A DNA stretch of 33,973 nucleotides from the NCBI GenBank assembly GCA_024640845.1, contig JAHEEE010000037.1, positions 1 through 33,973 of the forward strand, written 5' to 3'. The stretch comes from Myxococcales bacterium. Lineage in GTDB: Bacteria > Myxococcota_A > Polyangia > Polyangiales > Houyiibacteriaceae. Each line of letters starts with the position of its first letter. The stretch's first letter is position 1. This document shows, piece after piece, positions 3,564 through 24,254 of this stretch. The position numbers and the translations under genes were made by a program. The notes beneath the pieces are model-generated. The model was not told the origin of the DNA. It worked only from the letters and a program-made list of their open reading frames with translations, and ran no database searches.

Positions 3564-3566
3564 TCC

Positions 3567-4790: not shown

Positions 4791-4799
4791 GGGATGGGC

Positions 4800-5222
4800 A
4801 TGACAAGGCGGGGAAAAAGAGACCGGATTTCGCTTCCATGGGAACGGCGCGGTGGCCGCTTGCGCGGAGCGTTGCGCAATACCCGCTGGCAGGCCCTGTT
4901 CGGCGCCGTAGTGTTGGTAGCACTGCTCGTCGGCTTTGCGCGCTACTCCGAGCGCCGCATTCGCATGCGCAACACTCGGGTCGCGATCGCTCAGGTGAAA
5001 CAAGCCATCGATCGCTTTCGGACGGATGTCGGGAGATGTCCGAAGACCACCACGGAGCTCTTGCACCCTCCGCTTTCTCAGAAGCACTACCTCGATTCGA
5101 TGCCGACCGATGGTTGGGGCAGGCCCCTCCGCGTTCGCTGCCCGGGGCACTTCGAGGACGAAGCCGACGTAATTTCCGCGGGCCCAAGCGGCTCGCTTTT
5201 AAGGGACGACAACATTCAATGA
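4800..5222 (+). CDS. GspG-like protein with an ordinary N-terminal membrane anchor (no prepilin leader)
   Basis: This is a 140-residue protein between gspF and the true gspG. The start at 4800 is preferred because GAGGG at 4789-4793 sits 6 bases upstream; ATG 4794 in the same frame is too close to it. The N-terminus is strongly basic (residues 1-30), followed by one hydrophobic segment at 31-48, so the remainder should face the periplasm. The soluble part resembles the GspG C-terminal domain: VAIAQVKQAIDRFRTDVGRCP, a DGWGRPL turn, then VISAGPSG and a final DDNIQ, matching the calcium-loop region of the neighbouring GspG (VISAGPDLEFNTEDDI). The G/FTLIE prepilin cleavage motif is absent, so prepilin peptidase should not process it. 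It may act as a pseudopilus assembly or capping factor, but this role is inferred only. Its stop overlaps a possible upstream gspG ATG. Confidence 0.8.
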   Translation: MTRRGKRDRISLPWERRGGRLRGALRNTRWQALFGAVVLVALLVGFARYSERRIRMRNTRVAIAQVKQAIDRFRTDVGRCPKTTTELLHPPLSQKHYLDSMPTDGWGRPLRVRCPGHFEDEADVISAGPSGSLLRDDNIQ

Positions 5223-5239
5223 ACGGAACGGGAGGCTTC

Positions 5240-5635
5240 ATGCCCAACACAACCGAAACACGCCGACAACAGCACATCGACCGGGCGACGCGAAAAGAGG
5301 GCATGACGCTCATCGAGATCATGATCGTCATCACCATTTTCGCGATGATCGCCGGCGGCGTGGCTGTTGCTCTACTACCGCAGCTCGACAAAGCGCGAAT
5401 CAAGAGCACGAAAACCGACGCACAAGCGCTTCGCTCGGCAGTGATGCTCTACGTGTCTGAAAACCCAAGAGAATGTCCGACCGTCGACGACCTGGTCGCC
5501 GGGCGCTTCCTGGACGGCAGCCGCCGAACGTCCGACGCGTGGGACACCGATTTCCAAATCAGCTGTGAGGACGGTGAAGTCGCCGTCATCTCGGCTGGTC
5601 CCGACCTCGAGTTCAACACCGAGGACGATATTTAG
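5240..5635 (+). CDS. gspG: Major pseudopilin GspG
   Basis: This is the main subunit of the type II secretion pseudopilus. The start at 5240 is chosen because GGGAGG at 5230-5235 lies 4 bases upstream; an in-frame ATG at 5219 would add only seven residues. The 131-residue product has a prepilin leader ending in RKEG, with cleavage expected between Gly21 and Met22. The mature N-terminus MTLIEIMIVITIFAMIAGG carries Glu at +5. The C-terminal domain has the GspG calcium-loop signature ISAGPDLEFNTEDDI. It lies 6 bases ahead of gspH. The long open frame continuing upstream in the same phase from 4787 is non-coding background. Confidence 0.95.
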   Translation: MPNTTETRRQQHIDRATRKEGMTLIEIMIVITIFAMIAGGVAVALLPQLDKARIKSTKTDAQALRSAVMLYVSENPRECPTVDDLVAGRFLDGSRRTSDAWDTDFQISCEDGEVAVISAGPDLEFNTEDDI

Positions 5636-5641
5636 GTCGCC

Positions 5642-6331
5642 ATGCTCGCGCGCGCCCGATCCAAATCGACCAGCGGATTCACTTTGATCGAGGTGATCTT
5701 GGTGGTGGCGATCATCGCGGTGGTCGTCACGGGTGCGACGTTCGGGTTGGGCGCGGTCACGCGGACCAGGCTTCGTTCGGCTTCGTTCAGGGTCATGAGC
5801 GCCGCTCGATTTGCCTATAACCGTGCCATCACCCAAGGCACGACGACGCGACTCCACTTCGACTTCGAGAAGAACACCATGGCCGTCGAGGAGAGTGAGA
5901 CCCCAGTCACGTTGGCGACTGGGGATGATCTCGACGCCGAGACCGGGGACGCGGTCGACCCATGGGACCTGGCCCGAAGCCGGTTGGAGAAGCCGCTGGA
6001 CCCACCTCCCATGCGCTCTCCTTTTCAGCCGATCACGAACGCGAATGGGAAGGAGATCGAACGCTACACCGCGCAGCCACTGGGCGATGGCATCTCAATG
6101 CATGCGCTAATCACCCCGCACGAATCCGAAAAGAGGACTGATGGAGAAGGCTCCGTCTACTTCTTTCCGGGCGGGCTCACGGAGCAAGCTGTCATCCAAC
6201 TGCGGGACTCGAGCGATACGGTCTACAGCGTCGAAATCCATCCCCTCACGGGCAACGCGCGCATCCACAATTTCGCCTTCGAACCCTTAGACGAGATCGA
6301 CGATGAAGGCGAAGTGAGGGACAACATATGA
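5642..6331 (+). CDS. gspH: Minor pseudopilin GspH
   Basis: This is a type II secretion minor pseudopilin, expected to join the pseudopilus shaft below the I/J/K tip. The leader is short and ends SG, followed by FTLIEVILVVAIIAVVVTGATFG. Cleavage is expected after Gly12, with Glu17 at the +5 position. At 229 residues it is longer than many enteric GspH proteins (roughly 170-195). A Pro/Asp-rich stretch in the middle (around the PWDLARSRLEKPLDPPPM segment) may account for the extra length. The stop overlaps the gspI start by four bases (ATGA at 6328-6331). The H assignment rests on the leader plus position between gspG and gspI. Confidence 0.88.
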   Translation: MLARARSKSTSGFTLIEVILVVAIIAVVVTGATFGLGAVTRTRLRSASFRVMSAARFAYNRAITQGTTTRLHFDFEKNTMAVEESETPVTLATGDDLDAETGDAVDPWDLARSRLEKPLDPPPMRSPFQPITNANGKEIERYTAQPLGDGISMHALITPHESEKRTDGEGSVYFFPGGLTEQAVIQLRDSSDTVYSVEIHPLTGNARIHNFAFEPLDEIDDEGEVRDNI

Positions 6332-6948
6332 GCCGCGGATTCACACTCCTCGAAGTAATGATCGCGGTGGCGATCCTCGGGCTCTCACTCACCGCGATCT
6401 TTTCGAGCGAGGTCGGCGCGGCCAACGTCGCCGCCCGCGCACGGCGTCAAAACGTCGCAGCGACCTTGGCTCGCTGCAAGATGGGGGAAATCGAGGAGAT
6501 CATCGCCATCGAAGGACTGCCCGCCCTCGAGAAGAAGGACACCGATGCTTGCTGCGAGCACGCACCGATCGAGGGCTATGAGTGCGACTGGATCGTCGAG
6601 CGGATCATCCTGCCAGAGCTGGGCGCCCAGGAGGGAGACGAAGACGAGAGCGAGCAGGACCGTTCACAACGACGGCTGACCGAGACCTACGATGAGATCA
6701 ACGCGCAAGGCGGGGGTACACCGCAGGAGGTCATCGCGGGACAAGCAGGCAACCTCACGTCAATGGCGCTGGAAATCGGCTACCCCATCCTCAAGCCCTT
6801 TCTCGAGGAGCAAGTGCGTCGGGCGAGCGTGACCGTTCGATGGAAAGAAGGCCCACGGGAAATCGGCTTCGACGTCGTCCAGTACCTCGTATCAGAGCAG
6901 ATTGCGTCGCCGGATCCGAACGACGTGACGCCGGAGGACGGGCAATGA
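6328..6948 (+). CDS. gspI: Minor pseudopilin GspI
   Basis: This is a minor pseudopilin, expected at the tip of the pseudopilus with GspJ and GspK. The leader is only MSRG, followed by FTLLEVMIAVAILGLSLTAIF with Glu at +5. At 206 residues it is clearly longer than classical GspI (about 125). The extra length includes a charged stretch around residues 95-115 (GAQEGDEDESEQDRSQRR). The end of the core (VTVRWKEGPREIGFDVVQYL) fits the final GspI strands. Three Cys (two consecutive, DACCEH, and YECDW) lie in the periplasmic part. Both ends overlap neighbouring genes by ATGA, indicating coupled translation. Confidence 0.9.
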   Translation: MSRGFTLLEVMIAVAILGLSLTAIFSSEVGAANVAARARRQNVAATLARCKMGEIEEIIAIEGLPALEKKDTDACCEHAPIEGYECDWIVERIILPELGAQEGDEDESEQDRSQRRLTETYDEINAQGGGTPQEVIAGQAGNLTSMALEIGYPILKPFLEEQVRRASVTVRWKEGPREIGFDVVQYLVSEQIASPDPNDVTPEDGQ

Positions 6949-7628
6949 AACGCGGTTTCACGCTCCTCGAGGTGATCCTCGCCGTCACCGTGCTGGCGCT
7001 CATCGGGACGATGATATACGGCGGGTTCTCCCAGACGGCCTTGAACAAGGCCCGCGTCGAAAAGGACGTGGACCACTCGCGGATCATACACATGGCGCTT
7101 GAGCGCATGACCCGGGAGATCTCGATGGCGTTCGTTTCAACGCACGTCAACCCGTCCCTCGACCTCCGCGTGTCCAACACCGCGTTCGTCGGCAAGGACA
7201 GCGGTCGCCAGGATCGAATCGATTTCACGTCGTTCTCGCACCAACGCCTCTATCGAAACGCCCGCGAATCGGACCAAAACGAGATCAGCTACTTTATCAC
7301 CGAGCACCCGGACGAACCGGGAATGAACGTGCTGGCTCGCAGAGAGCAGAACCGCATCGACGAAGACCCGCGCAGAGGCGGGAAGTCACAGATCCTCGTC
7401 GAGAATGTCGAAGAGTTCAACGTAGAGTACTTCGATCCCCTGCTGAGCGAATGGGTCGACACCTGGGACACGGTCAACACGCTGGCCCAACCGAATCGCC
7501 TGCCGACACAGGTGCGCATACGACTCGGCGTCAAAGACCCCCGCCGTCCGAGCAAGACACAAACGTTCGGGACGCGAGTCGTAATTCCCATCACCTATGC
7601 GTTGAACCACGCCAACTACAACCCATGA
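6945..7628 (+). CDS. gspJ: Minor pseudopilin GspJ
   Basis: This is a minor pseudopilin of the type II secretion tip complex. The start at 6945 overlaps the gspI stop (ATGA) and gives the canonical short leader MKRG followed by FTLLEVILAVTVLALIGTMIYGGF, with Glu at +5. An in-frame upstream start at 6840 would bury the leader and is rejected. The 227-residue product contains GspJ-like features: the RMTREISMAFVS helix end and later strands (ISYFITEHPDEPGMNVLARREQ, VENVEEFNVEYFD, LPTQVRIRLGV). The gene overlaps gspK by ATGA at its 3' end. Confidence 0.92.
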   Translation: MKRGFTLLEVILAVTVLALIGTMIYGGFSQTALNKARVEKDVDHSRIIHMALERMTREISMAFVSTHVNPSLDLRVSNTAFVGKDSGRQDRIDFTSFSHQRLYRNARESDQNEISYFITEHPDEPGMNVLARREQNRIDEDPRRGGKSQILVENVEEFNVEYFDPLLSEWVDTWDTVNTLAQPNRLPTQVRIRLGVKDPRRPSKTQTFGTRVVIPITYALNHANYNP

Positions 7629-8977
7629 CCCGGACGACCACACGATCGCGCCCAAAGCGCTCCCAAGAAGGTGTTGCCTTGATCCTCGCGATCACGACGG
7701 TGGCGATCCTCGCGGTCATGCTGACAGACATGCATGAGACGACCGGCACGGCCTTTGCGGTGTCGACGTCGCAACGGGACGCTCTCCAGGCCGAGTACAT
7801 GGCGAAGAGCGCCTTGAATCTCACCCGGTTGCTCATTGGAAAGGAGCCAGAGGTTCGGCGGTTCATCGACCCGCTCTATCGCGCAGCCACCGGACGGCCC
7901 GCGCCACAACTACCCGTTTGGAATTTCATCGATGACCTCCTGGCCCCCTTCTGCACCCCCGAGGACGAGCGCGACACGCTCATGCAGCTCGGGATCGATT
8001 TTGGAGACACAGTCGGCTTCGACGGCCTACCAGGTCGATGCCATGTGGTCGCGGTGAGCGAGAACGGCAAGATCAACGTAAACGATCCGTTGTTTCTCGA
8101 CGGTGAACGCGCGCGCAACAACGTGGCCAATCAGCTCTTCGCGTTGACGGGCGGCTATCTCCCCGAGAGCCCCTACGACGCGTTGTTCACGACGCAGGAC
8201 GAGAACGGCACGATCACGACGCGTCTCGACCTCGTTGCAGCGGTCATAGACTGGTGGGATCGCGACATCCAGCGCACGGACTTCGACCCGGGTGCGGGCG
8301 AGACCCGCACCGGTGGCACAGGAACGGAAGACGACTCGATCTACCAACTCCGGGACGACGGCTATCGCAACAAGAATGCGCCGCTCGACTCGATTCAGGA
8401 GCTGAGATTGATTCGCGGCTTCTCAGATGATTTTTGGGCGACCTTCGTGGAGCCGATTCCCAACGACCCCGCATCACGCATCTTGACGATCTACGCGTCA
8501 GGCCTCGTCAACATCAACGAGGCCAGCCCGCAGGTTCTGCTGGGCCGCGTTTGTGCACACGCACCCGAGTCGACACTTTGTACCGACCCTCTCGAGTCGT
8601 TCAAGTTCACGAACCTCTTGAGCACGATTCGCGCACTCATTCCCATTCCTCTGTTCAGTCGTCCGGAGGACTTCACCAACTTCGTCGAGGGCAAAGGAGG
8701 CAGCAAAGACCTCTATCCGATGATCACGGGCTTCTTGCCCGAGGGGAGCGAGCTTCTGTTCCTTCCCATCGTGATCGATGAGCAGGAGAAGGCAGCACTC
8801 GTTCGCTCTCTGGCCACTGCTGCGAGGATCTTCACCATCGAAGCGACGGGGGTGGTCGGCCGATCGCGGGTTCGCATCGAGTCCGTCGTCAATTTCCACG
8901 ACCGATGGGTGCCACCACCACCAAACACTGGCCGCATGCCGGGGTTGGGTGTCTTCCACTACTATCGGGTGAATTGA
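7625..8977 (+). CDS. gspK: Minor pseudopilin GspK
   Basis: This is the large pseudopilin that caps the pseudopilus tip. The start at 7625 overlaps the gspJ stop by four bases; a longer in-frame open stretch from 7451 is not used. The 450-residue product has a basic leader ending SQEG and then VALILAITTVAILAVMLTDM. As usual for GspK, the residue at +5 is not Glu. The periplasmic part contains the GspK helix-hairpin-helix-like helical domain signs (SENGKINVNDPL, VAAVIDWWDRD, LDSIQELRLIRGFSDDFW, GLVNINEASPQVLL). It is longer than enteric GspK (about 330). gspL begins 1 base after the stop. Confidence 0.95.
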   Translation: MTRTTTRSRPKRSQEGVALILAITTVAILAVMLTDMHETTGTAFAVSTSQRDALQAEYMAKSALNLTRLLIGKEPEVRRFIDPLYRAATGRPAPQLPVWNFIDDLLAPFCTPEDERDTLMQLGIDFGDTVGFDGLPGRCHVVAVSENGKINVNDPLFLDGERARNNVANQLFALTGGYLPESPYDALFTTQDENGTITTRLDLVAAVIDWWDRDIQRTDFDPGAGETRTGGTGTEDDSIYQLRDDGYRNKNAPLDSIQELRLIRGFSDDFWATFVEPIPNDPASRILTIYASGLVNINEASPQVLLGRVCAHAPESTLCTDPLESFKFTNLLSTIRALIPIPLFSRPEDFTNFVEGKGGSKDLYPMITGFLPEGSELLFLPIVIDEQEKAALVRSLATAARIFTIEATGVVGRSRVRIESVVNFHDRWVPPPPNTGRMPGLGVFHYYRVN

Positions 8978-8978
8978 A

Positions 8979-10445
8979 ATGTCGTTGGTTTTGGGAATAG
9001 AGATCACACCACGCGTCGTGCGCGGAGCATTCCTGAAGACGGCGTTGCGCGGATCGGAAATCGAGCGCTATGCGGAGGCTCCGATTGCACGTCCGACGGA
9101 GTCACAGTCCGAGGCGGATGCACTCAGAGCGGCGGTCGGTCAGGTCCTCGCTCTAGGAAGCCGACCACCCGACCGGATCATCGCTTCGCTGAATGGCGAG
9201 GCCGCGTCGTTGAGGCTGATTGACCTTCCCGCCGGGGTGGAGAAAAAGATCGCCGAAGTCCTTCCGGGAGAGCTCGAGGCGGTCCTTCCGTTCGACATAA
9301 CGGACTCGGTCGTGGACTACCAAATCGTCGGAAGAACCAACACGACCATTCAGTTGATGACTGTTGCCGTGCCGCGCGCCAGCGTATCCGCGCGACTCCA
9401 ACAACTTCAGAATGCCGGGGTAGACCCGCGGGAGCTGGCAGTCGGAGCAGCCGCCTTCGGTGGGCTCGGCGGCATCATCGAAGAGTGGCTGTCGGAGCGG
9501 ACCGTGCTGGTCATCGACGTTGGCCCGGACAACACGGATTTCGCGATCCTCACAGCCGGGCAATGCACCTTCGCGCGAACGCTGTCAGGCGGAATGAACC
9601 TCGTGGAATCGGGCCGGCGAACCGAGCTCGGCGCCTCCCTGCAGCGAACGCTCGCAAGCTATAAGGCGCAGCGGGCGGAAGAGCCCTCCATCATTCTGCT
9701 CGCGGGGGAAACCGCGCCGATGGAAACCGCTCGCCAATGGCTCACCGAGCAGCTTGGCATCGAGTGCGGCACGGTGCCCATACCCTCCGCACCCGGCGCA
9801 GACGAGGACACGGTTGCGAAGTTCGCCAAAGCCGCGGCACTGGCGGCTCGGGCCATCACTAGAAAGAAACAACTCGATCTTCGGCAAGGCGAGTTTGCAT
9901 CGAGGGCGGCGGCAGGCGAGCTCCGCCAGCACTTGCGCCTCATCGCCGTGTGCGTCGGCGCGGTGCTCCTTTCGTTCATCGTCTCACTCGGCGCACGCTA
10001 CCGGGTCGCGCGAGCCGAGCACGAGCAACTCACCGAAGATCTCGCCGAGGTGAGCCAGGACCTGCTTGGCGAAGAGACCCGGACCGCCCTCCACGCAAGG
10101 GAGCTGCTCACCGCAGGACCGCGTATCGACGACCCGCTTCCGCGGTTCGATGCTTACGACGTGCTCGAGGCGATTTCCGAGAGCATCCCGCCCGAGATCA
10201 AGCATGACACGCGACGCTTACTGATCGAGATCGACGATGACGGACAGACCGGACGATTCGAGGTCCAGGGCACCGTCGACTCCATCGCCGAACGTGACCG
10301 TCTCGTCGAGGAGCTTCAGTCACACAAGTGCTTCGCGGACGTGGAAAAGGGATCGATCTCGACGACCGTCGGTGATCGGAAGGACTACAAGGTGGCCGTG
10401 AAAGTGGAATGCGAAGTCCAGGCCGACGCAGGGAAGGAGGAGTAG
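8979..10445 (+). CDS. gspL: Type II secretion protein GspL (actin-like/PilM fold)
   Basis: GspL is the bitopic inner-membrane protein that recruits GspE on the cytoplasmic side and GspM in the membrane. The 488-residue product has an N-terminal actin-like domain (VLGIEITPRVVRGAFLK at the start, VLVIDVGPDNTDFAIL near 177-192) resembling GspL/PilM. One transmembrane helix lies at about 319-337 (LRLIAVCVGAVLLSFIVSL), followed by a heptad-like region and a small periplasmic ferredoxin-like domain. Position between gspK and gspM supports the assignment. The strong GGAAGGAGG at its 3' end serves as the ribosome-binding site of gspM. Confidence 0.9.
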   Translation: MSLVLGIEITPRVVRGAFLKTALRGSEIERYAEAPIARPTESQSEADALRAAVGQVLALGSRPPDRIIASLNGEAASLRLIDLPAGVEKKIAEVLPGELEAVLPFDITDSVVDYQIVGRTNTTIQLMTVAVPRASVSARLQQLQNAGVDPRELAVGAAAFGGLGGIIEEWLSERTVLVIDVGPDNTDFAILTAGQCTFARTLSGGMNLVESGRRTELGASLQRTLASYKAQRAEEPSIILLAGETAPMETARQWLTEQLGIECGTVPIPSAPGADEDTVAKFAKAAALAARAITRKKQLDLRQGEFASRAAAGELRQHLRLIAVCVGAVLLSFIVSLGARYRVARAEHEQLTEDLAEVSQDLLGEETRTALHARELLTAGPRIDDPLPRFDAYDVLEAISESIPPEIKHDTRRLLIEIDDDGQTGRFEVQGTVDSIAERDRLVEELQSHKCFADVEKGSISTTVGDRKDYKVAVKVECEVQADAGKEE

Positions 10446-10446
10446 C

Positions 10447-11010
10447 GTGGCTTTTGGTGACGCGTTCGACAATCTGCGAAGCTGGTCCGACAGCTTGAGC
10501 ACTCGTGAGCAACGCTTGCTCGGCATGATGGGCCTGGTGTTCGGGGCTCTCCTGATCGTCCTGCCAATGTACGTCGGCATCGCGACCATCTCCGATGTCG
10601 AGAACGAGAACGAGGAGATCGTGCAGGTCCTGCGCGACATCAAGCGAGCAGAGCCCCGCCTTCGGCAACAAAAGGCCGAGAAACGGGCCATCGATGCACT
10701 CTACGATCGGAAGGCACCGTCGCTCGGAGGCTTCCTCGAAGAACGCGCGCAGCAATATGGCATCACTGGCCTCGGGATCACCGACCAGCCCAATCTGGAC
10801 CTCGGTGACTACAGCCGCCGCTCGGTGCGCGTGAGCCTTCCCGTCGTCGAGCTTCGGCCGCTCATCGAGATGTTGGCCGATATCGAGAACAGCTCATACC
10901 CCGTCTCGATCGAGCAAATCCAGATGACCGGTGGACGGATGAGAACAGGATACACCGTCAAGCTGGCGGTCAGCGCATATGATCGCAAAGTGCCCGGGCT
11001 GGCGGAGTAG
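10447..11010 (+). CDS. gspM: Type II secretion protein GspM
   Basis: GspM is the small bitopic partner of GspL in the inner-membrane platform. The GTG start at 10447 lies 1 base after the gspL stop and about 6-7 bases after a strong Shine-Dalgarno sequence (GGAAGGAGG). The 187 residues comprise a short cytoplasmic N-terminus, one transmembrane helix at about 23-45 (LLGMMGLVFGALLIVLPMYVG), a charged helical stretch and a C-terminal domain of alternating strands. Sequence conservation in this family is low, so the name depends mainly on size, topology and order between gspL and gspN. Confidence 0.82.
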   Translation: MAFGDAFDNLRSWSDSLSTREQRLLGMMGLVFGALLIVLPMYVGIATISDVENENEEIVQVLRDIKRAEPRLRQQKAEKRAIDALYDRKAPSLGGFLEERAQQYGITGLGITDQPNLDLGDYSRRSVRVSLPVVELRPLIEMLADIENSSYPVSIEQIQMTGGRMRTGYTVKLAVSAYDRKVPGLAE

Positions 11011-11018
11011 AGGCAGTC

Positions 11019-11972
11019 GTGCAGCGCATTCCGATCAAGAAGATATTGAAGTGGGCCGGATACCCGGCGTTCTTTATCGTGTGCTTCGTGTTCTTCGCAT
11101 ACAAGACCTTCCCCTACGATCGGCTCGCCGATCGCTTGGCACAGGAAGCGCAAGCCCGAGGCTATGAAATCGAGATCATCGACCTCACGCACTCCGGTCT
11201 CAGCGGACTCGCTTTCGAAAGCCTGCGGGTCGTGCTCCCCGCCGAAGAGGGGTCGCCTCCGCTGGACGTGATCTTCGACGAGCTCACGGTAAGCGCCTCC
11301 CTCTTGTCACTGATGACCGACACGACATCGTTCAGCTTCGACGCCGAGCTCGCCGGAGGCGAAGCGGTGGGTGACGTTTCGATTGGCACGGACAACATGG
11401 AAGTCGAAGCCGAAATCGAAGACATCGATCTCGCTGCGATCCCGGCGCTCCGCAGGTTCACTATGGTCCCGATGACCGGCACGCTGAACGCAGAGATCGA
11501 TCTCTCCATGCCGAGCAACGTCGCGGAGTCCACCGGCAACGTGGAGCTGACCATCGACTCACTCAACGTCGGAGACGGCAAGACCCAGCTCGATATCCCG
11601 GGCTGGGGTGGGCTCACACTCGATCGCGCCGACGCAGGCGACCTCGAGCTACTGGCGACGATCTCCGAGGGGACCGCCACAATCGAACGCGCCAAGTCCC
11701 ATGGGGAGGACCTAGAGCTCGACGCAGTGGGAACGGTGCGCCTCCTCCGTCCCATCAAGCGCTCTGAGCTGAACCTGATGGTCCGGGTCAAGATTGAGGA
11801 CGCATACAAAGACAGAAGCGCGAAAGTGGCAACGATGCTGGAGCTTGCGTCGTCGGGCCTCGAGGCTGCGATGACTCCCGATGGCGCGATGCAGTACATG
11901 ATCGGAGGGTCCGCAGGAGGCCGCTTGCGGCCCCGAGCTGCCGGGCGCCTGCCGTTCGAAGCCCCAAAGTGA
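11019..11972 (+). CDS. gspN: Type II secretion protein GspN
   Basis: This is the last gene of the secretion operon. The GTG start at 11019 gives a 317-residue protein with a single N-terminal transmembrane helix (about 13-29, YPAFFIVCFVFFAYKTFPY), then a large periplasmic part rich in beta strands (FESLRVVLPAEEG, GTLNAEIDLSMPSN, NVELTIDSLNVGDG). It looks like the AsmA-like/GspN family found at the end of deltaproteobacterial and some gammaproteobacterial gsp operons. The YEIEIIDLTHSGLSGLAFESL segment, like AsmA-type repeats, supports this. GspN is dispensable in several systems, and its role here is not evident. Confidence 0.82.
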   Translation: MQRIPIKKILKWAGYPAFFIVCFVFFAYKTFPYDRLADRLAQEAQARGYEIEIIDLTHSGLSGLAFESLRVVLPAEEGSPPLDVIFDELTVSASLLSLMTDTTSFSFDAELAGGEAVGDVSIGTDNMEVEAEIEDIDLAAIPALRRFTMVPMTGTLNAEIDLSMPSNVAESTGNVELTIDSLNVGDGKTQLDIPGWGGLTLDRADAGDLELLATISEGTATIERAKSHGEDLELDAVGTVRLLRPIKRSELNLMVRVKIEDAYKDRSAKVATMLELASSGLEAAMTPDGAMQYMIGGSAGGRLRPRAAGRLPFEAPK

Positions 11973-13057: not shown

Positions 13058-13894
13058 ATGGCCGGACGCTTGTCGATCGTGGCGACGCCGATCGGGTGTT
13101 TGGAGGACATCACCCTGCGGGCCTTGCGCGTATTGAGGGAAGCAGAGCTGATCCTCGCAGAAGACACCCGCCACACGCGAACGCTGTGCGCCAAGCACGG
13201 CATCGATACCCCGCTACGCTCGTTTCACGCGCACAGTAGTGACGAAAAGGTAGCTGCCGTAGTCGACGCGTTGCGGGGGGGCGCCCGCTTCGCCCTCGTC
13301 AGCGATGCGGGCACACCGTTGGTGAGTGACCCGGGTGCGCACCTCGTCTCGCTCGCCGCAAAGGCCGGTGTCACGATCGAGGCGATTCCCGGACCAAGCG
13401 CCGTGCTGGCTGCACTTTGTGTTGCGGGGTTCCGAGTGCGCCGATTCTCATTCGAGGGATTCCTCGCACGCGGAGGCAAGGAACGGCGCCAGGCGTTCGA
13501 TCGAATGCGGGACTCCGAGGCAGCCGTAGTTTTCTTCGAGTCTCCACACCGCATTCAGGCGACCCTGCGCGATCTGGAGGAACACGTGGGGGTCGACCGT
13601 GAGGTTGCCGTGTGCCGCGAGCTCACGAAAATCCACGAGCAAACGCTTCGAGGCCCTCTGCCGGAGGTCCGTGGGGCGCTCGCAGATCCGCCGAAGGGCG
13701 AAATCACCGTCGTGCTCGAAGGGAAGCGCAGCGATCGCCCGGCAGAAGATGTCGACGTCGCCGCACTGGTGAACGGGTGGAAGCGCGATGGAATGACCAA
13801 CAAAGAGATGGCCGAGCGGCTTCGTGACGACTTTGGTTGGAAGCGGAACGCGGCATACCAGGCCGTGCTCGATGCGACCTCGAACGACGACTAG
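13058..13894 (+). CDS. rsmI: 16S rRNA (cytidine(1402)-2'-O)-methyltransferase RsmI
   Basis: RsmI methylates the 2'-O of C1402 in the ribosomal P site using SAM, which helps decoding fidelity. The 278-residue protein shows the tetrapyrrole-methylase fold with the RsmI signatures: LSIVATPIGCLEDITLRAL at the start, AEDTRHTRTL, the ALVSDAGTPLVSDPG glycine-rich loop, IPGPSAVLAALCVAG, EGFLARGGKERR, and FFESPHRIQATLRDL. A C-terminal domain of about 40 residues (NGWKRDGMTNKEMAERLRDDFGWKRNAAY) is the winged-helix-like end common in this family. It starts 37 bases after the sigma gene. Its TAG stop shares the tetranucleotide CTAG with the stop of the convergent gene. Confidence 0.95.
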   Translation: MAGRLSIVATPIGCLEDITLRALRVLREAELILAEDTRHTRTLCAKHGIDTPLRSFHAHSSDEKVAAVVDALRGGARFALVSDAGTPLVSDPGAHLVSLAAKAGVTIEAIPGPSAVLAALCVAGFRVRRFSFEGFLARGGKERRQAFDRMRDSEAAVVFFESPHRIQATLRDLEEHVGVDREVAVCRELTKIHEQTLRGPLPEVRGALADPPKGEITVVLEGKRSDRPAEDVDVAALVNGWKRDGMTNKEMAERLRDDFGWKRNAAYQAVLDATSNDD

Positions 13895-14862
13895 CTCGCT
13901 GACGTGGGCAATGTCATGCAGACGCGCAAGCTCCCCGCGGTGCCTGCTTCGGTCCAAATGCGTCCGCCTTGGGTTTCGATCACGCTTCGGGCGACGGCGA
14001 CCTCGATCCCTAGGGCATCCGAGCGCGAAAGAGGCTTCTCCAGCTTCTCCACAATCGAGAGCGTATCCGCGGTGGCGTCTTTGAGGCTCGCCATGAGATC
14101 GAACTGAACGAACCCCTTCCCCGCCTGATCGCGACGAGGCGGCGCGACGCGGATCGAAATATCGGTTTCGGAGGAACGGATCACCAACACGGTGAGACTG
14201 ACCAGCGCCTGGACCGTTCGGTGCCGGTCTACGAAGACGCGAGGCAACCCCTCCGACACGCCCCCGACGACCGAAGTGCCGTCGGCGCGGGCGCGCGCGA
14301 ACCCAATGGCTTCGGTCACGAGCTCGTGTGGAGACACCCACTGCTGCTGCAGCCGGAGCGTGCCGGCCTCCATACGAGCCTGGTCGACAACGGTCGCGAC
14401 CAATCGCAGCAAGCGCTCGGCGGCGGCACGGATCGTACGCACACTCCGCTCCTGCTCGGCGTTGAGCTCTCCATCGACGCGCCCGAGCAACATGTCGGAG
14501 AAACCGGTCACCGAATTGAGCGGATTACGAAGATCGTGACCGAGGGCTCCGAGAAAGCGAGCCCTCTGGCGTTCCGGCAGCTCCGACTCCGTCTCGTAGG
14601 TGCCAACTGTCTCGAGCACCGGCGCCATGGCTTCGGGCGCAAGTTCCGTAGCGGGCGGGACGGGAGGCTCGGCGGAACCCAGAAGAAGCGTCAACGCGCG
14701 AATCGAAAAGACACTCTGCAAGAGCCCTACGCCCATGACCATGAGCGCTCCCCAGACGCGATGCTGGTCCGCCAACAACAGCCACAGCCCGGCGAAGTAG
14801 ACCGCCGAGCAGAGCAACGCCCAGCGCAGCCGTCGAATCGTTGGGTGTCTAGACACGCTCAC
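13891..14862 (-). CDS. Membrane histidine-kinase-like protein with degenerate ATPase domain (second of a pair)
   Basis: This is a 323-residue paralogue of the gene just upstream. The GTG start at 14862 overlaps the TGA of that gene (GTGA), pointing to coupled translation; a longer in-frame start at 14970 lies inside the upstream gene and is unlikely. Two transmembrane helices (about 13-31 and 37-58) are followed by a linker and a HisKA dimerisation domain with His109 (LGHDLRNPLNSVTGFSDMLL). The C-terminal part matches an HATPase domain in length and ending (GIEVAVARSVIETQGGRIWTE). However, the N-box Asn, the DxGxG box and the GLGL loop are not recognisable. It may be unable to bind ATP and act as a phosphotransfer or regulatory partner; this is inference. 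Confidence 0.78.
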   Translation of the reverse strand: MSVSRHPTIRRLRWALLCSAVYFAGLWLLLADQHRVWGALMVMGVGLLQSVFSIRALTLLLGSAEPPVPPATELAPEAMAPVLETVGTYETESELPERQRARFLGALGHDLRNPLNSVTGFSDMLLGRVDGELNAEQERSVRTIRAAAERLLRLVATVVDQARMEAGTLRLQQQWVSPHELVTEAIGFARARADGTSVVGGVSEGLPRVFVDRHRTVQALVSLTVLVIRSSETDISIRVAPPRRDQAGKGFVQFDLMASLKDATADTLSIVEKLEKPLSRSDALGIEVAVARSVIETQGGRIWTEAGTAGSLRVCMTLPTSAS

Positions 14863-15851
14863 GCCCGCCCTCCGACTGGAAGACGAATCATGAAACGCGA
14901 GGGCGAGCTCCCGTGATAGAGCGAACCGCCGTGGCGGCCGATGAGCTCCGAAGTGACTGCAACGGGCCACTGACGAATCTTCGTCATGTCCTCGGCGGCA
15001 AGCACTTCGGCCGTCGTCGGCAACGCCTCGAGCGTGGGCCGGTCCGAGCTGTCCGCACGTACCTCAATCGCGAAATAGTCTCCGGAAGGCGTCAGACTCA
15101 CTCCAATGTCTGCCTCCCGATGGCTCGTCGCCAGAAAGTCCGCCAGGACGAGAATCGAACGACGAAGCCGGGCTTCATCGGCTTCGGCAATACACGGCTC
15201 GTTGGGGAGCGTGCATTGAACATGCCGCTTGTTCGACCAGAGCTGCCTGGCCTCCGTCGTCGCCCGGCTGACGAGCCCGGCGACATCAACCCTCTCGGTG
15301 TCGAGACGGAGTTCACCCTCAGCGAGCTGAGAGATGTCGAGTGCACTGTCGAGTAATACCCGCAGGCGGATGCCGGACGCACGAATGATCTCCAGATCCT
15401 CTCTCTGCGAGGCATTCACATCGCCGTCGATGCCGCTCAAGAGGACGTCGGAGAAACCGAGCACCGCGTTGAGCGGCGTGCGAAACTCGTGGCGAAGCGC
15501 TCTCAGGTAGTCCACCTCGTCCGGACCTCCGCTCGATTCCGACAGCCGCTCGGGCGGGTCGGGAACCGCCGACGCCGAAGCGGCGATTGAACCAAGTGCC
15601 GCTCGCGGGTCGCCTGCATGCGCTTCGTTGCTCGATTCAGATTTCGACAGCGCCACGAAAAGTCTTCCGGGGACGAAGACGGCCGCAACGGCCGAGAGCA
15701 TGAACACCGCCCAGGACGAGCCATCACGAACGCCAGCTGCGAAGAACAAGCCGAGGCCCGTCAGCAGGGCCAACGTCGAGGCATAGACCCGGTACCGAAG
15801 GGCTGCCACACGCTGCAACTCCACCCGCAGTGAGTCCCCGCCATCCCCCAC
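14859..15851 (-). CDS. Membrane histidine-kinase-like protein with degenerate ATPase domain (first of a pair)
   Basis: The GTG start at 15851 lies 1 base after the GH15 stop, giving 330 residues. A longer frame from 15914 would overlap GH15 by 62 bases. Two transmembrane helices (about 22-40 and 46-68) precede a Ser/Pro-rich linker and a HisKA domain with His121 (LRHEFRTPLNAVLGFSDVLL). This domain closely parallels the downstream paralogue (GFSDxLL, then a GD/GE-x-N segment). The following domain has the D/E-ARLRRSILVLADFLA helix where NLLxNAxKF is expected, but Asn is absent. The DxGxG and GxGL boxes are missing, while a trailing SELIGRHGGSLYHG remains. There is no extracytoplasmic sensor of note and no adjacent response regulator. 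Confidence 0.78.
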   Translation of the reverse strand: MGDGGDSLRVELQRVAALRYRVYASTLALLTGLGLFFAAGVRDGSSWAVFMLSAVAAVFVPGRLFVALSKSESSNEAHAGDPRAALGSIAASASAVPDPPERLSESSGGPDEVDYLRALRHEFRTPLNAVLGFSDVLLSGIDGDVNASQREDLEIIRASGIRLRVLLDSALDISQLAEGELRLDTERVDVAGLVSRATTEARQLWSNKRHVQCTLPNEPCIAEADEARLRRSILVLADFLATSHREADIGVSLTPSGDYFAIEVRADSSDRPTLEALPTTAEVLAAEDMTKIRQWPVAVTSELIGRHGGSLYHGSSPSRFMIRLPVGGRA

Positions 15852-15852
15852 G

Positions 15853-17748
15853 TCAGCGTCCGATCTCGATCTCCGGTACGCGATGCGAGCCTTCGTCCCG
15901 CAAGCGCAGCGCAAGGTCGATGCGCGCAGCGGCGTTGATCAGCCCGAGATGACTGAACGCCTGGGGGAAGTTCCCTAGCAGCATCTTGCTCCCAGGCTCG
16001 ATTTCCTCGGCGAGCAGCCCCAAGTGATTGGATGCCTCGGCGTGCGCGACGAAGACATGCTGCGCCTCGTCAATCCGACCCGCCATTGCAAGCACCTCTG
16101 CAAGCCAGAAACCGCACAGAACGAACGCACCTTCTTCGCCACCGACGCCATCGTCGGAGCGATAGCGGTAGACGTGCGGCCCCTCACCGAGCTCGGCCTG
16201 AATCCACTCGACGGTGCGAAGCACGCGCTCATCACTCGGAGGAAGAAACCCGTGAATCGGCAACAACAGCAACGACGCGTCCGGGTGCTCATGATCATAG
16301 GCGGCCACGAATCGCTTGCCGGACTTGTCCAGGCCCCGCACACAAAGCTCGGCATGAAGCTCGTCAGCCGTCTTCTGCCATCGGCTTTGCAAGATCTTGT
16401 CGCCGAAGAGCGGCGCGAGCTCTGCCCCCCGCCGAAGCGCTAACCAGCTCATGAGCTTGGAGTGAACGTTGTGCCGTTTGCCAGCACGCGGCTCCCAGAT
16501 ACCGTGATCCGGTTCGGGCCAGGTGGCCGCCACGTTGTCCACTACCTCCCGAAGCCGGCGCCAGCCGCGCGCGGTGAGCGAGCCCCCGCCGCGTTCGTAG
16601 ACGTATGCGGCATCCATCAGCGCACCGGCGGTGTCGAGCTGCACTTGGTCCCTTGCCCCGTTGCCCACGCGGACCGGCTGGCAACCACGGTATCCGGCAA
16701 GATGGTCGAGCGTACGCTCATCGGGCACTCGCTCGCCATCGACCGCGTACATGACCTGAAGCTTCCGATCGCGCTCGAGGGTATCCCGCACGAAGTGAAA
16801 GAACTCACGCGCCTCGCTTCGGCAACCAAGAAGGTTCGCGGCACGCACCGCCATCGCCGTGTCCCGGGTCCACGTGTAGCGGTAGTCCCAGTTGCGCTTG
16901 CCGCCTATCCACTCGGGGATGGAGGTCGTCGGCGCTGCGACCATCGCGCCGGTAGGCGAGTACATCAGCAGCTTCAACACCAAGCCCGATCGAATTACGT
17001 GATGTCGCCACGGGCCGTCGTACTGGAGGCCACGCACCCAGTCGCGCCAACGCTGTCGAGTCTTGCGCAGAGCCTCGAATGGCCGGTACGCCAGCACGGA
17101 CTCGGCCTCCGTCGTGTTCCAACTGATGACAACCCAAACGCGCTCACCCGCTTTCAGCGGAAACACCGCCTCCACGCCGCCTTGCGGGCGCGCCTTCCAC
17201 CGCCCGACGCCCCCAAGCACCGCCATGAGCCGCTCTCCGGAGGCGCCTTTGGCAAGCACGCTCGTCCCGTTTACCTCAAACGTCGTCTCGGAGAGACCGT
17301 ACCCAAAACGCGGATCGAACACCACCCGCACCATCACCTCGCCTTCGACACACTGGACGCGTCGATGCACCTCGTGCATCGCGGAGCGAGGGTCGTCGGT
17401 CCAGGGCATGTAGTCGGTCAGCCGAAGCACACCGCGGCCCTCGGCACGAAAGAGGGTTTCCAGGACGTTAGTCCCCGGATCGTAGCGCTGCAGGGTTTCG
17501 AACGGGTAGTCGACTGGGCGCACCGAGGTCGAGCCACCGTGGTCCTCGTCGAGGAGCGCACCGAAGACGCTCGGGCTGTCGAAGCGCGGCAAGCAAAGCC
17601 AGTCGATGGCGCCGTCGGCACGCACGAGGGCCGCAGAGAAGCCGTCGCCGATCAAGCCGTGATCCGCAATGGAGAGGCCGCGCGAAGACGCTTCGTCGGT
17701 GAACACGAAAGGCCGGCCGAGCCTCTTGGCAGCACTGTAGAGATCCAT
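15853..17748 (-). CDS. Glycoside hydrolase family 15 protein (glucoamylase/trehalase-like)
   Basis: This is a cytoplasmic-looking GH15 enzyme that probably hydrolyses terminal alpha-glucosidic bonds (alpha-glucans or trehalose). ATG 17748 is chosen; an in-frame start at 17826 would overlap the divergent protease gene. The 631-residue product has the bacterial GH15 N-terminal beta domain (IADHGLIGDGFSAALVRADGAIDWLCLPRFDSPSVFGALL). The (alpha/alpha)6 barrel shows the family motifs RNWDYRYTWTRDTAMAV, QLDTAGALMDAAYVYE, EGAFVLCGFWLAEVLAMAGRIDEA with a conserved catalytic Glu, and LLAEEIEPGSKMLLGNFPQAFSHLGLINAA. No signal peptide is evident. Two kinase-like genes follow at +1 and -4 base spacing. 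Substrate specificity between glucoamylase and trehalase is not decidable here. Confidence 0.92.
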   Translation of the reverse strand: MDLYSAAKRLGRPFVFTDEASSRGLSIADHGLIGDGFSAALVRADGAIDWLCLPRFDSPSVFGALLDEDHGGSTSVRPVDYPFETLQRYDPGTNVLETLFRAEGRGVLRLTDYMPWTDDPRSAMHEVHRRVQCVEGEVMVRVVFDPRFGYGLSETTFEVNGTSVLAKGASGERLMAVLGGVGRWKARPQGGVEAVFPLKAGERVWVVISWNTTEAESVLAYRPFEALRKTRQRWRDWVRGLQYDGPWRHHVIRSGLVLKLLMYSPTGAMVAAPTTSIPEWIGGKRNWDYRYTWTRDTAMAVRAANLLGCRSEAREFFHFVRDTLERDRKLQVMYAVDGERVPDERTLDHLAGYRGCQPVRVGNGARDQVQLDTAGALMDAAYVYERGGGSLTARGWRRLREVVDNVAATWPEPDHGIWEPRAGKRHNVHSKLMSWLALRRGAELAPLFGDKILQSRWQKTADELHAELCVRGLDKSGKRFVAAYDHEHPDASLLLLPIHGFLPPSDERVLRTVEWIQAELGEGPHVYRYRSDDGVGGEEGAFVLCGFWLAEVLAMAGRIDEAQHVFVAHAEASNHLGLLAEEIEPGSKMLLGNFPQAFSHLGLINAAARIDLALRLRDEGSHRVPEIEIGR

Positions 17749-20936: not shown

Positions 20937-23000
20937 TCACCTCGGAACCAGTGACCGGCCCCGCGGGCATGTTACCTCAACTCCGGTCGGTCCTGCGTCG
21001 GTTTCGATGATCTTGAACTCCACTCGGCGGTTTTTCTCCCAAGCTTTGGCGTTACTCTTGCGGTCCACTGGGCAGCGTTCGCCGTAGCCAGCCGACCGCA
21101 AGCGATCCTTGAGAACGCCCCGCTCGATGAGGGCGTTCATGACCGATGCGGCTCGTGCTCGGGTGAGCTGGATGTTGTACTGATCGCTGCCTCGCTCGTC
21201 GGCATGGCCCTGAATCTCGACCAAGGTAATCTGTGGGCTGGCATTGAGTGTGGCCGCGACTGCGTCGAGCAGCGGGAAGCTCCTCGCCTTGATGATGGCG
21301 CTGTCGGTCTCGAAGTAGACCTTCTCCAGGATGGTGATTTGCGTGTCCTCGAGAATGACGAGGCCCTTGTCCGGACAGCCGTCTTCGTCCTCATGGCCGT
21401 TGTACGTCTCCGGATCGTTCGGGCAGGCGTCGTCGACGTCGAGGATCCGGTCTCCGTCGTTGTCGACATCAGGACAACCATCTTCATCTTGGAACTTGTC
21501 GAAGTCTTCCGGATCATTCGGGCAGAGGTCTCTTTCGTCCGGGATGCCGTCGCCGTCGTTGTCGGGGTCCGGGCAACCATCTTCATCCTGGAAGCCGTCG
21601 AAATCCTCAGGCTCGTCGGGACACTGGTCCATGTCATCTGGAATTCCGTCGCCGTCCCGATCGCCTTCGCGACCCTCCGGACAACCGTCTTCATCGCGGT
21701 CACCGTCGTAGTCCTCTTTGACCAATGGACACGCATCGTCGATATCCAAGATGCCGTCACCGTCGTTGTCGCGATCGGGGCAGCCGTCGCTGTCTTCGAA
21801 ACCGTCTTTGTCCTCGGCGTCATCCGGACAGCCGTCGTCGTCGTCCGCAATGCCGTCATTGTCACGATCGCCCACCGCCGGCTCGTACATGAAACCGAGC
21901 ACGACACGCGCATCCGCGGCTTCAAACCCAGTCTTCGGAATCCCGGCACCACCCGCCGCATAGAGGAAGCTCTTGTTGGTCACGAAGTACTTGAACCCGA
22001 GCAAGGCTTCCATCGAAAGGGTGCCTTTGGTCCCAATTTCCTGGGCGATCTTGGTTCCGTAGAGCTCAAGAACGATGTCGAACGACTGCGCGACGCGAAA
22101 CGCCGAACCGAAGCCAAAGGTGATCAAGTCGTTGTAGGTGAAGCGGCTGCCTTCACCCTGATCGACGGGTGCAATCGCAACATCGTTGGGATTCTCGGCT
22201 AAGCTCGTCGAGGGGATCGAAGACCCATCCCAAATGAAGCTGGCGCCCTGCCCGGAATTCCAGCGATAGCCGCCTTCGAAGGCAAAGCGGATCTTCTCGA
22301 TCGGTTGGAACTCCAGCACGACGGTAGGCCAGAGCGAGAAGCCTGGCTCACCCGCAAACTGATTTGCCTTCGCAGTGGGAAATCCAGCGCGGAGCGTCAC
22401 TGCGATCCCGAGCGGGTACTCGCCGAGATTCAAGAGGCGAGCCTTGACGTTGAGCGTCAGATCCCCGACGCCCTGAGAGCGCAGGCCTCCGGCTTCGAGG
22501 TTGTAGAGACAAGTGGTTGAACCTTCGAGGCAACTACCTTCGCGATCAGGCGCCTGCACCGCGTTACCACGAAAGAACGTGATCGGAAGCGAAATGCCGA
22601 CCACCAATCGATCGATGATGCCGAAGTTGAACTTGAACGTGCCAGTGAACCCCTGTCGTGCAATCCGGTTCTGTCGTGTCGCGTCGTCGGCGGCACCGTT
22701 CGGATCATTTATGAAGCCGTTGTAGCGAAGGATCCCGAAGCCCGCGTCGAGAATGAGCCCGAAGCTGAACTCCTTGTGGGGCATGACCTCGCTGCCATTC
22801 ACGCTGAAGTAGCCGCGGGTATCGACGGCCGGCCGAAACAGGTGCAGATCCATCCCGCCATTCACGAGCGTGGCGTCTTGGGCCCCCGCCGAGCTAGGAA
22901 GCGCACACGCCCCGAGCAGGAGCAGTACGAGCCATGCACCCCGCCGGGACGAATCCCTCCTGGACTGTGTTCCCCCAAACACCCATCTCCAGTGTGTCAC
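20937..23000 (-). CDS. OmpA-family outer-membrane protein with thrombospondin type 3 repeats
   Basis: This is a 687-residue outer-membrane protein with a GTG start at 23000. The N-terminus is basic and then has a signal-peptide-like stretch (AWLVLLLLGACALPSSAGA, cleavage near residue 40). A beta-barrel-like region of about 330 residues follows (alternating strands, many aromatic residues). Residues 377-545 form calcium-binding thrombospondin type 3 repeats (D-x-D-x-D-G units such as DRDNDGIADDDDGCPDD). The C-terminal OmpA domain (about 555-666) contains VYFETDSAIIK, EIQGHADERGSDQYNIQLTRARA and EKNRRVEFKI, which bind peptidoglycan in the family. It thus anchors the outer membrane to the wall with a long calcium-stiffened linker. 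It lies 12 bases downstream of the FHA gene. Confidence 0.92.
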   Translation of the reverse strand: MTHWRWVFGGTQSRRDSSRRGAWLVLLLLGACALPSSAGAQDATLVNGGMDLHLFRPAVDTRGYFSVNGSEVMPHKEFSFGLILDAGFGILRYNGFINDPNGAADDATRQNRIARQGFTGTFKFNFGIIDRLVVGISLPITFFRGNAVQAPDREGSCLEGSTTCLYNLEAGGLRSQGVGDLTLNVKARLLNLGEYPLGIAVTLRAGFPTAKANQFAGEPGFSLWPTVVLEFQPIEKIRFAFEGGYRWNSGQGASFIWDGSSIPSTSLAENPNDVAIAPVDQGEGSRFTYNDLITFGFGSAFRVAQSFDIVLELYGTKIAQEIGTKGTLSMEALLGFKYFVTNKSFLYAAGGAGIPKTGFEAADARVVLGFMYEPAVGDRDNDGIADDDDGCPDDAEDKDGFEDSDGCPDRDNDGDGILDIDDACPLVKEDYDGDRDEDGCPEGREGDRDGDGIPDDMDQCPDEPEDFDGFQDEDGCPDPDNDGDGIPDERDLCPNDPEDFDKFQDEDGCPDVDNDGDRILDVDDACPNDPETYNGHEDEDGCPDKGLVILEDTQITILEKVYFETDSAIIKARSFPLLDAVAATLNASPQITLVEIQGHADERGSDQYNIQLTRARAASVMNALIERGVLKDRLRSAGYGERCPVDRKSNAKAWEKNRRVEFKIIETDAGPTGVEVTCPRGRSLVPR
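21366..21872 (-). repeat. Thrombospondin type 3 repeat block inside the OmpA-family gene
   Basis: The coding region for residues 377-545 consists of about five degenerate units of 31-38 residues. Each has an Asp-rich D-x-D-x-D-G motif followed by a DxCP or DGCP Cys. The Cys pattern (DGCPD, DACPL, DGCPE, DQCPD, DLCPN, DGCPD) and the acidic ladder are typical of calcium-binding TSP3 repeats. At the DNA level the units are related but not identical, so this is a protein repeat and not a perfect tandem DNA repeat. Confidence 0.85.
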
Positions 23001-23012
23001 GGGCGGCGCCCA

Positions 23013-24254
23013 TTAATCAACGATTCTGCGCCTCTGGGCAGCTTTCGCCTGCCGGGCCAACTGTCGAGCCTCCTGGCGCTGCTTCGGGGTAATGCCCCGT
23101 ACCTCGAGCACCAACGCCGCCTCGCGCAGGGCACGGTCGAAGTCCTCGTCCCGCAGCGCGCGGTCACCATCATTGATGTGGGACTGAACATATCGATAGC
23201 GGATCTCGCCGAATTCCGGCGTCTGCCGCAACACACTGTCCTCTGGGAGCTCTTGAGCGATCGCATATGCTCGATCGAATCGCTCGCGCGCCAACGCCTT
23301 GCGCGCTCGAACGAGCTCCCTCTCCCATTCCTGCGGCTCGTCGATCGACACGTCGTCGCTTCGCCCATCTGACGGCGTCTCGGCGGATTTTCTCGTTGCG
23401 GTGTTGGTAGCTCTTTGCGCGGCGGCCGCAGGCGCAGGCTGCTCGGTGGAGGTGGCTTTGGGTCCAGCGGATCCAGGCTGCGGGCGCAAGGTCGTGAGGA
23501 CGGCGCCAGCACCGGCCATCAATAAAAGGGCGATGACCGACAGCGCGATGATCGGTTTGCGCGACGAGGATGAGGATGGCGCTCCAGCGGCCGGCTCTTC
23601 GGGCAGCGCGACCAAGGTATGAGCACCTTCGGCGGGGAGAAACCGAAATCGCACCTGGCCGAGCTCGAGGATGTCGCCGCTTTCGAGAACGGCTCGTGTT
23701 GCGCGGACACCATTCACGCACATCCCATTGGCGCTCTCGAGGTCGAAGACCGTTACCTTTCCGTCACGCACCTGCACCTCGGCGTGCTCATGTGAGATCG
23801 ATTTATGATTGATCCAAATGTCGAGTCGTTCGTCGCGCCCGATGCGCAGCGCCGACTTGCTGAGCGTGAACTCCGCGCCCGCAGCCGGCTCACCGAGAAC
23901 CACTAGCCTCGGCGGGGGCTGACTTTTCGGCTTTGGCGAGGGTAACGTGTTGGCGGTGGCCACGACGTCCGATTGAAACGCGAGGTCGTAGTCGCCGATG
24001 CCGAGTTGATCCCCCGCCGCGAGCTCGGCCTTGCTCTCGATGCGCTCCCCGTTGACCGTGACCCCGTTGTAGGAACCGAGATCCTCGACGATGTAAGAGC
24101 CATTGCGTTTCAGCAGCCGGGCGTGGAGGCGCGATACATTGCGCTCCGTGAGCCGAATACTGTTGCCCCGTTCGCGACCGATGGTGATCTCATCCCGCAG
24201 TAGCGGAACGACGGTGGTGTGACCTTCGTCATCGGAGATGACGAGCTTATACAT
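23013..24254 (-). CDS. Membrane protein with two FHA domains and a C-terminal helical repeat region
   Basis: This 413-residue protein has two forkhead-associated domains, which bind phosphothreonine peptides. The first (about 5-95) shows ITIGRERGNSIRLTERNVSRLHARLL and a YNGVTVNG end. The second (about 112-200) shows LRIGRDERLDIWINHKSISHEHAEV and NGMCVNGV. A transmembrane segment (IIALSVIALLLMAGAGAVL) follows. An Ala/Pro/Thr-rich linker then leads to a charged helical region (WERELVRARKALARERFDRAYAIAQELPED, then FDRALREAALVLEVRGI) that looks TPR-like and would be periplasmic if the FHA part is cytoplasmic. It is the first gene of a likely three-gene unit with the OmpA-family protein. No Ser/Thr kinase is in the window. 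Confidence 0.9.
   Translation of the reverse strand: MYKLVISDDEGHTTVVPLLRDEITIGRERGNSIRLTERNVSRLHARLLKRNGSYIVEDLGSYNGVTVNGERIESKAELAAGDQLGIGDYDLAFQSDVVATANTLPSPKPKSQPPPRLVVLGEPAAGAEFTLSKSALRIGRDERLDIWINHKSISHEHAEVQVRDGKVTVFDLESANGMCVNGVRATRAVLESGDILELGQVRFRFLPAEGAHTLVALPEEPAAGAPSSSSSRKPIIALSVIALLLMAGAGAVLTTLRPQPGSAGPKATSTEQPAPAAAAQRATNTATRKSAETPSDGRSDDVSIDEPQEWERELVRARKALARERFDRAYAIAQELPEDSVLRQTPEFGEIRYRYVQSHINDGDRALRDEDFDRALREAALVLEVRGITPKQRQEARQLARQAKAAQRRRIVD

Follow-up and report, generated by a model that had tools for sequence, protein, structure and literature searches.

Two adjacent genes encoding membrane histidine-kinase-like proteins, here called A and B, are located in the 33,973-nucleotide stretch of DNA that was analyzed (the window; Myxococcales bacterium, contig JAHEEE010000037.1). 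Both proteins have kept the phospho-acceptor histidine and both lack the residues with which histidine kinases bind ATP, which raises the question of what such a pair can do. Sequence comparison identified A and B as a genus-specific version, predicted to be wholly ATP-free, of an ancient tandem in which the gene of an active kinase (A) precedes that of a pseudokinase (B).

The A-B Locus and Its Gene Order

Protein A (330 aa; 14859–15851, reverse strand) and protein B (323 aa; 13891–14862, reverse strand) each comprise two TM segments, a HisKA DHp region and a CA domain without ATP boxes; their orthologs in relatives are an active kinase and a pseudokinase, respectively. On rechecking, the positions and strand of both genes given in an earlier note on this DNA were correct, as were two further details, namely that A and B share four bases (GTGA) and that one base separates A from the preceding gene. 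This gene (15853–17745, reverse strand), the first of a presumed operon GH15-A-B, was predicted to encode a GH15 enzyme with a TREH_N domain (trehalase/glucoamylase-like; PF00723, 1e-71; PF19291, 7e-17), which scored 401 bits against NCBIfam TreH1, under the cut-off of 820. No response regulator was found nearby, as had been stated earlier, with zero PF00072 (receiver) matches on the contig of the window.

Within the genus, GH15-A-B lies between an M50-like gene and the genes for an RpoH-type sigma factor and RsmI, and GH15 was located directly upstream of A in 15 of the 16 fetched loci, the exception being a locus with a run of unread bases there. The earlier note had proposed looking for this order in related genomes; it was present in the genus of the window and in two other genera of the same family (G022, G025, and G031), where the boxes of A are intact. 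GH15 as a universal partner of A-B was rejected, as close relatives of the enzyme in Myxococcaceae and other groups have no A-B nearby. Since A-B stands beside different neighbors in other genomes, the link to GH15 seems to be lineage-specific and suggests co-expression only. GH15 is probably co-transcribed with A and B, so that a sugar or glycan state might be the context in which the pair acts.

Elsewhere in the window, a type II secretion-like cluster (37–11972, forward strand) starts with a secretin and a T2SSE ATPase and lies directly before the sigma-factor gene. A gene at 23013–24254 (reverse strand) showed two FHA/YscD-type domain matches and adjoins a gene for an OmpA-domain protein (20937–23000, reverse strand), the C-terminal part of which is unusually conserved (>90% identical across the genus).

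Domains and Residues of A and B

All features in this section are encoded on the reverse strand. By hydropathy, two hydrophobic segments were detected in A (residues 22–40, 15732–15788; residues 48–66, 15654–15710) and in B (residues 12–30, 14773–14829; residues 36–54, 14701–14757), in agreement with the two TM helices claimed for each protein. The HisKA segments proved real, scoring 47.1 bits (A) and 55 bits (B) against PF00512 (cut-off 26.9). The DHp helical hairpin covers residues 110–177 of A (15321–15524; helices 6–35 and 43–73 of the AlphaFold2 model) and residues 96–165 of B (14368–14577; model helices 4–34 and 43–73). His121 of A, in the motif HEFRTP (15489–15491), and His109 of B, in HDLRNP (14536–14538), had been correctly named as the phospho-acceptors and were invariant in the alignments of A and B, respectively. 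The acidic residue next to the histidine is kept (E in A; D or E in B). Four positions after the histidine, A has Thr125 (15477–15479), a phosphatase-type residue according to PMC3510030, and B has Asn113 (14524–14526).

About 140 further residues follow HisKA in each protein, and CA-like alpha/beta domains were assigned to residues 186–325 of A (14877–15296) and residues 173–319 of B (13906–14346). The reported loss of the N-box Asn and of the DxGxG and GxGxG-type boxes was borne out by the alignments in all 15 A and all 15 B sequences scored from the genus. In A, VLADFLAT (15126–15149) stands in place of NLxxNAxK, with V and F at the positions of the two N-box Asn; DxG and GxGxG are absent and the lid is shortened. 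At the N-box place of B, SLTVLVIRS (14173–14199) was found, with S and L at the positions of the two Asn; DxGxG is absent and G2 is reduced to a remnant. Among the features expected of a HisKA autokinase, A and B contain the DHp domain with its histidine and the fold of the ATP domain, while HATPase_c with N, G1, and G2 boxes is absent.

The HMM comparison proposed earlier gave no match of A or B to PF02518, even at E ≤ 1. HisKA was the sole family over the cut-off in the Pfam scan of the two proteins, and families of the ChpT or Spo0B type were absent. Because some NCBIfam kinase models aligned along most of the C-terminal part of A and B, this part is regarded as a diverged CA domain and not something else. 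Judged from the missing residues, neither protein would be able to bind ATP.

In the genome of the window, 25 of the 28 HisKA matches have an adjoining PF02518 match, as read from two match lists; the remaining three are A, B, and a protein encoded on another contig (C29). The latter, a PAS-type protein (L286:5030–6427, reverse strand), ends soon after the HisKA helices with no CA domain at all; the next gene encodes an intact PAS histidine kinase (L286:3332–5026, reverse strand), and the two form another tandem.

Predicted Structures and Their Neighbors

AlphaFold2 models were built from family alignments (pLDDT 87.9 for A and 89.0 for B), and both showed a two-helix DHp hairpin and a Bergerat-like alpha/beta domain. 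Compared with solved structures, the C-terminal domain of A matched the CA domain of ThkA (Z 18.9, rmsd 2.1 over 142) and the whole A model matched DivL (Z 19.4, rmsd 6.1 over 213). The whole B model matched GacS (Z 20.2, rmsd 3.7 over 226), followed by RetS (Z 18.0, rmsd 3.8 over 191). This structural alignment to kinases, also proposed in the earlier note, showed a CA fold without the N, G1, and G2 residues and therefore no complete pocket. In the models, the ATP domain of both proteins is a retained shell without nucleotide residues; deletion of the CA domain or its exchange for another fold was rejected by the models and their structural matches.

RetS and GacS of Pseudomonas, the best structural neighbors of B, represent a kinase-kinase interaction through DHp. 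They are hybrid proteins encoded apart and, unlike A and B, both have recognizable CA domains. DivL, the best structural neighbor of A, is similarly a histidine kinase fold repurposed without kinase activity, and it also lacks phosphatase activity (PMC4211667); RocA is regarded as a probable pseudokinase (PMC6193603). These likenesses would fit a non-catalytic pair whose binding alters the activity of a response regulator or another kinase, with no handling of phosphate. We consider this unlikely, as the phospho-His and the T or N at +4 were invariant in the genus sequences scored, and a pure scaffold need not keep them. DivL is besides the reverse of A and B: its histidine is replaced by Tyr and its N, G1, F, and G2 boxes are kept (PMC4211667), whereas the histidine of A and B is invariant.

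An Ancient Tandem Pair in the Order

When 144 related genomes were searched, A-B tandems turned up in many families of the order (Myxococcota). A was found before B, adjacent and on the same strand, in 67/67 fetched loci holding both genes, which is not an unbiased rate, as loci were fetched where A- or B-like matches were seen. In a search of the phylum with the B alignment, the lower scores were not diagnostic, since ordinary kinases score there too. Outside the genus, all ATP boxes (N-box Asn, G1 Asp/Gly, and three G2 Gly) were intact in 57 of 58 A sequences, whereas the boxes were incomplete in 59 of 60 B sequences (N-box Asn present in 4/60, G1 Asp and Gly in 3/60, all boxes in 1/60).

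A and B formed separate clades in the tree (support 98/89 and 99/95), with the two proteins of the window falling in the matching clades, and the A and B clades were also recovered from the DHp domain only (100/100). A and B, described earlier as twin paralogues, thus belong to two ancient clades and are not recent twins; a recent duplication of one gene was rejected. Likewise, the absence of ATP boxes from both partners holds within the genus and in one further genome (G065), but in relatives only B is without boxes, and A has the full canonical make-up of a kinase. The same division was found within a single protein of G033 (L161:4787–6622), an A-B fusion of 612 residues with two HisKA and two HATPase_c matches, in which the ATP boxes are intact in the first module and absent in the second.

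Within family f7, B has all boxes in G061 (L210) and a partly intact ATP pocket in G056 (L211) and G051 (L212). As these sequences nest among degenerate B, the boxes of B were probably lost more than once. A of G065, which belongs to another family (L167:4737–5792), also lacks the N, G1, and G2 residues, though PF02518 still matches, and the N-terminal part of the adjacent B is short too. This A grouped with the genus of the window (99/96 for the full domain, 90/84 for DHp only), where long-branch attraction is possible; its loss of boxes may be common to it and the genus or independent.

FasB and FasC of group A Streptococcus are a close parallel to the state in relatives, with A intact and B degenerate. 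Like A and B, which are encoded by co-directional genes here, they are two adjacent histidine-kinase-like membrane proteins, and they were reported to heterodimerize, the HATPase domain of one being dispensable (PMC12675982). They differ in that the cognate regulator gene fasA is adjacent and in that one partner has a working CA domain, while this domain is intact in 0/15 A sequences of the genus of the window (57/58 elsewhere). Phosphorylation of B in trans by A is plausible in relatives, where an active-looking CA domain of A is present beside B. For the pair in the window, unconventional nucleotide binding, or phosphorylation of the histidines in trans by the CA domain of a partner kinase, is improbable: although an intact CA fold is predicted and the acidic residue that kinase activity requires has been kept, both proteins lack the N-box Asn, the G1 Asp/Gly, and the G2 GxGxG, and A has a shortened lid.

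Each piece of this picture has been described before, in ChpT (PMC3433190), FasB/FasC (PMC12675982), RocA (PMC6193603), DivL (PMC4211667), and ChrS (PMC9491836). Literature searches, limited to open-access sources, found no description of this A-B pair. The present data make it possible to trace a kinase and pseudokinase pair across an entire bacterial order; one genus has lost the working partner, and the same seems to hold for a single genome from another family (G065). To our knowledge, histidine pseudokinases have been known from scattered single cases. A natural series from active plus dead to dead plus dead can be used to study the purpose of a dead CA domain, and it bears on the long-term stability of histidine kinase heterodimers and on whether kinases can become pure phosphatases.

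Changes and Selection within the Genus

The distance from the stop codon of A to the histidine of B is mostly 900–1280 bases in relatives and about 275–320 bases in the genus. Because this distance shrank, B of the genus is deduced to have lost a long, multi-TM sensor region. A of the genus showed a mean identity to other A of 44% in DHp and 17% in CA, compared to 56% and 52% among the A sequences outside the genus, and the stem branch of the genus was long in both clades (A 2.52, B 1.95 changes per column).

The position four residues after the histidine was T in 15/15 A and N in 15/15 B sequences of the genus, and S, A, or G in 60/60 other B sequences. Willett and Kirby, working on HisKA kinases from M. 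xanthus and T. maritima, found only T or N at +4 to be needed for phosphatase activity and nothing else, and the acidic residue at +1 to serve kinase activity alone (PMC3510030). B of the genus thus acquired a phosphatase-type residue as the kinase residues went.

As the same losses were found in all 15 genus sequences scored, they are ascribed neither to chance nor to sequencing error. Median pairwise dN/dS among genus sequences was 0.089 (DHp) and 0.138 (CA) for A and 0.047 (DHp) and 0.072 (CA) for B; the values are approximate, with synonymous sites near saturation, and indicate that both proteins, dead CA domains included, are under purifying selection. One MAG (G017, L177:3172–4152) contained an A without the in-frame stretch that holds the whole H-box, the rest being kept, which is either a real loss or a misassembly. 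This sequence and the long stem branches, as seen after relaxed constraint, are what decaying pseudogenes or assembly artefacts might leave. Such an origin is scarcely credible, and was largely refuted by the genus-wide conservation, frames that are open in all fetched genus members, strong purifying selection, and conserved gene order.

Possible Functions of the Pair

With the phospho-His kept and the ATP boxes lost, the earlier proposal of a DHp phosphotransfer or phosphatase module appears reasonable. We tentatively favor an ATP-independent, probably heteromeric membrane DHp module that would act on a response regulator; a dedicated phosphatase is its likeliest role, perhaps combined with that of a relay. 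This reading is quite possible but falls short of probable. A and B would associate via their DHp hairpins to form a membrane-anchored four-helix bundle, and neither could phosphorylate its own histidine without an ATP pocket. The conserved histidine and the Thr or Asn at +4 in both proteins would act on a phosphorylated response regulator encoded elsewhere in the genome, most likely by removing its phosphate, which may also be passed on via the histidine of A or B; the dead CA shells may be kept for packing or partner recognition. The module is favored by the loss of boxes in 15/15 A and B of the genus, as opposed to 57/58 intact A elsewhere, and by the DHp domain of A being closer to that of other A than is its CA domain (44 and 17%), while the constant order in 67/67 loci and the fusion in G033 support association of A with B.

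A phosphatase role appears more likely than a relay, mainly because the +4 residue of B became Asn, the residue type that HisKA proteins need for phosphatase activity, although this change was probably one ancestral event and carries limited weight. CrdS of Myxococcus xanthus is among the HisKA proteins in which T or N at +4 is needed exclusively for this activity; it shares with other kinase-phosphatases of this species, and with A and B, the H-E/D-x-x-T/N motif that sets it (PMC3510030), but the CA domain of these proteins is active. Reports differ on the phosphatase activity of DHp without CA: a CA-less form of HK853 is quoted in PMC7005713 as having this activity, whereas CA-less EnvZ DHp had none in one study (PMC8971529). 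The latter result counts against an ATP-free phosphatase, as does the stimulation of the phosphatase reaction that nucleotide normally gives (PMC7005713). Since the acidic residue, tied to kinase activity only in PMC3510030, has been kept, there are also hints that the histidine is still phosphorylated somehow, which counts against a pure phosphatase. ChrS of Corynebacterium, a pseudokinase with a CA frameshift, resembles A and B in that CA is destroyed and DHp still matters, but it is a laboratory-evolved single mutant in which the autophosphorylation His is not needed (PMC9491836).

A phosphotransfer hub, in which His121 and/or His109 would accept phosphate from one receiver, in a hybrid kinase or a regulator, and hand it on to a second, is somewhat unlikely. 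ChpT of Caulobacter and Spo0B of Bacillus are dimeric histidine phosphotransferases with a DHp hairpin and phospho-His like A and B, and ChpT also has an atypical Bergerat domain unable to use ATP (PMC3433190). The conserved histidine with its acidic neighbor would suit such a role, as would the genome of the window, where about 50 receiver matches were found, several of which share a frame with HisKA/HATPase_c, against only five Hpt matches. However, ChpT and Spo0B are single homodimeric proteins and not two membrane-anchored paralogues, neither A nor B matched their Pfam families, both A and B contain membrane segments, and the switch to Asn at +4 of B is left unexplained by a hub.

The favored module can be extended to a more far-reaching proposal, which is possible but rather doubtful: in one genus, an order-wide, previously unnamed Myxococcota family of kinase/pseudokinase heterodimers would have evolved into a phosphatase that consists of two proteins, uses no ATP at all and acts on a response regulator, both partners having lost their pockets and B having gained the phosphatase Asn. 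If true, evolution has turned a kinase pair into a pure phosphate remover.

Regulators and Other Neighbors of A-B

No conserved cognate regulator was found next to A-B across the order, a weak negative result, as the receiver profile used had recruited only eight seed sequences. Among the fetched loci, A and B had no universal neighbor other than each other. Few loci had a receiver near A-B, and most of these belong to one group of f12 genomes (L166, L182, L204, L205, L207, L209, and L224), where a receiver-GAF-PAS-HisKA protein, with domains checked in L166, is encoded about 1 kb downstream of B and is a possible partner. A GNAT gene was found near A-B in 10 loci. Outside the genus, a Ser/Thr protein kinase gene lies just upstream of A-B in 21 loci, namely L163 (1067–3622), in which the kinase domain was checked, and 20 further loci.
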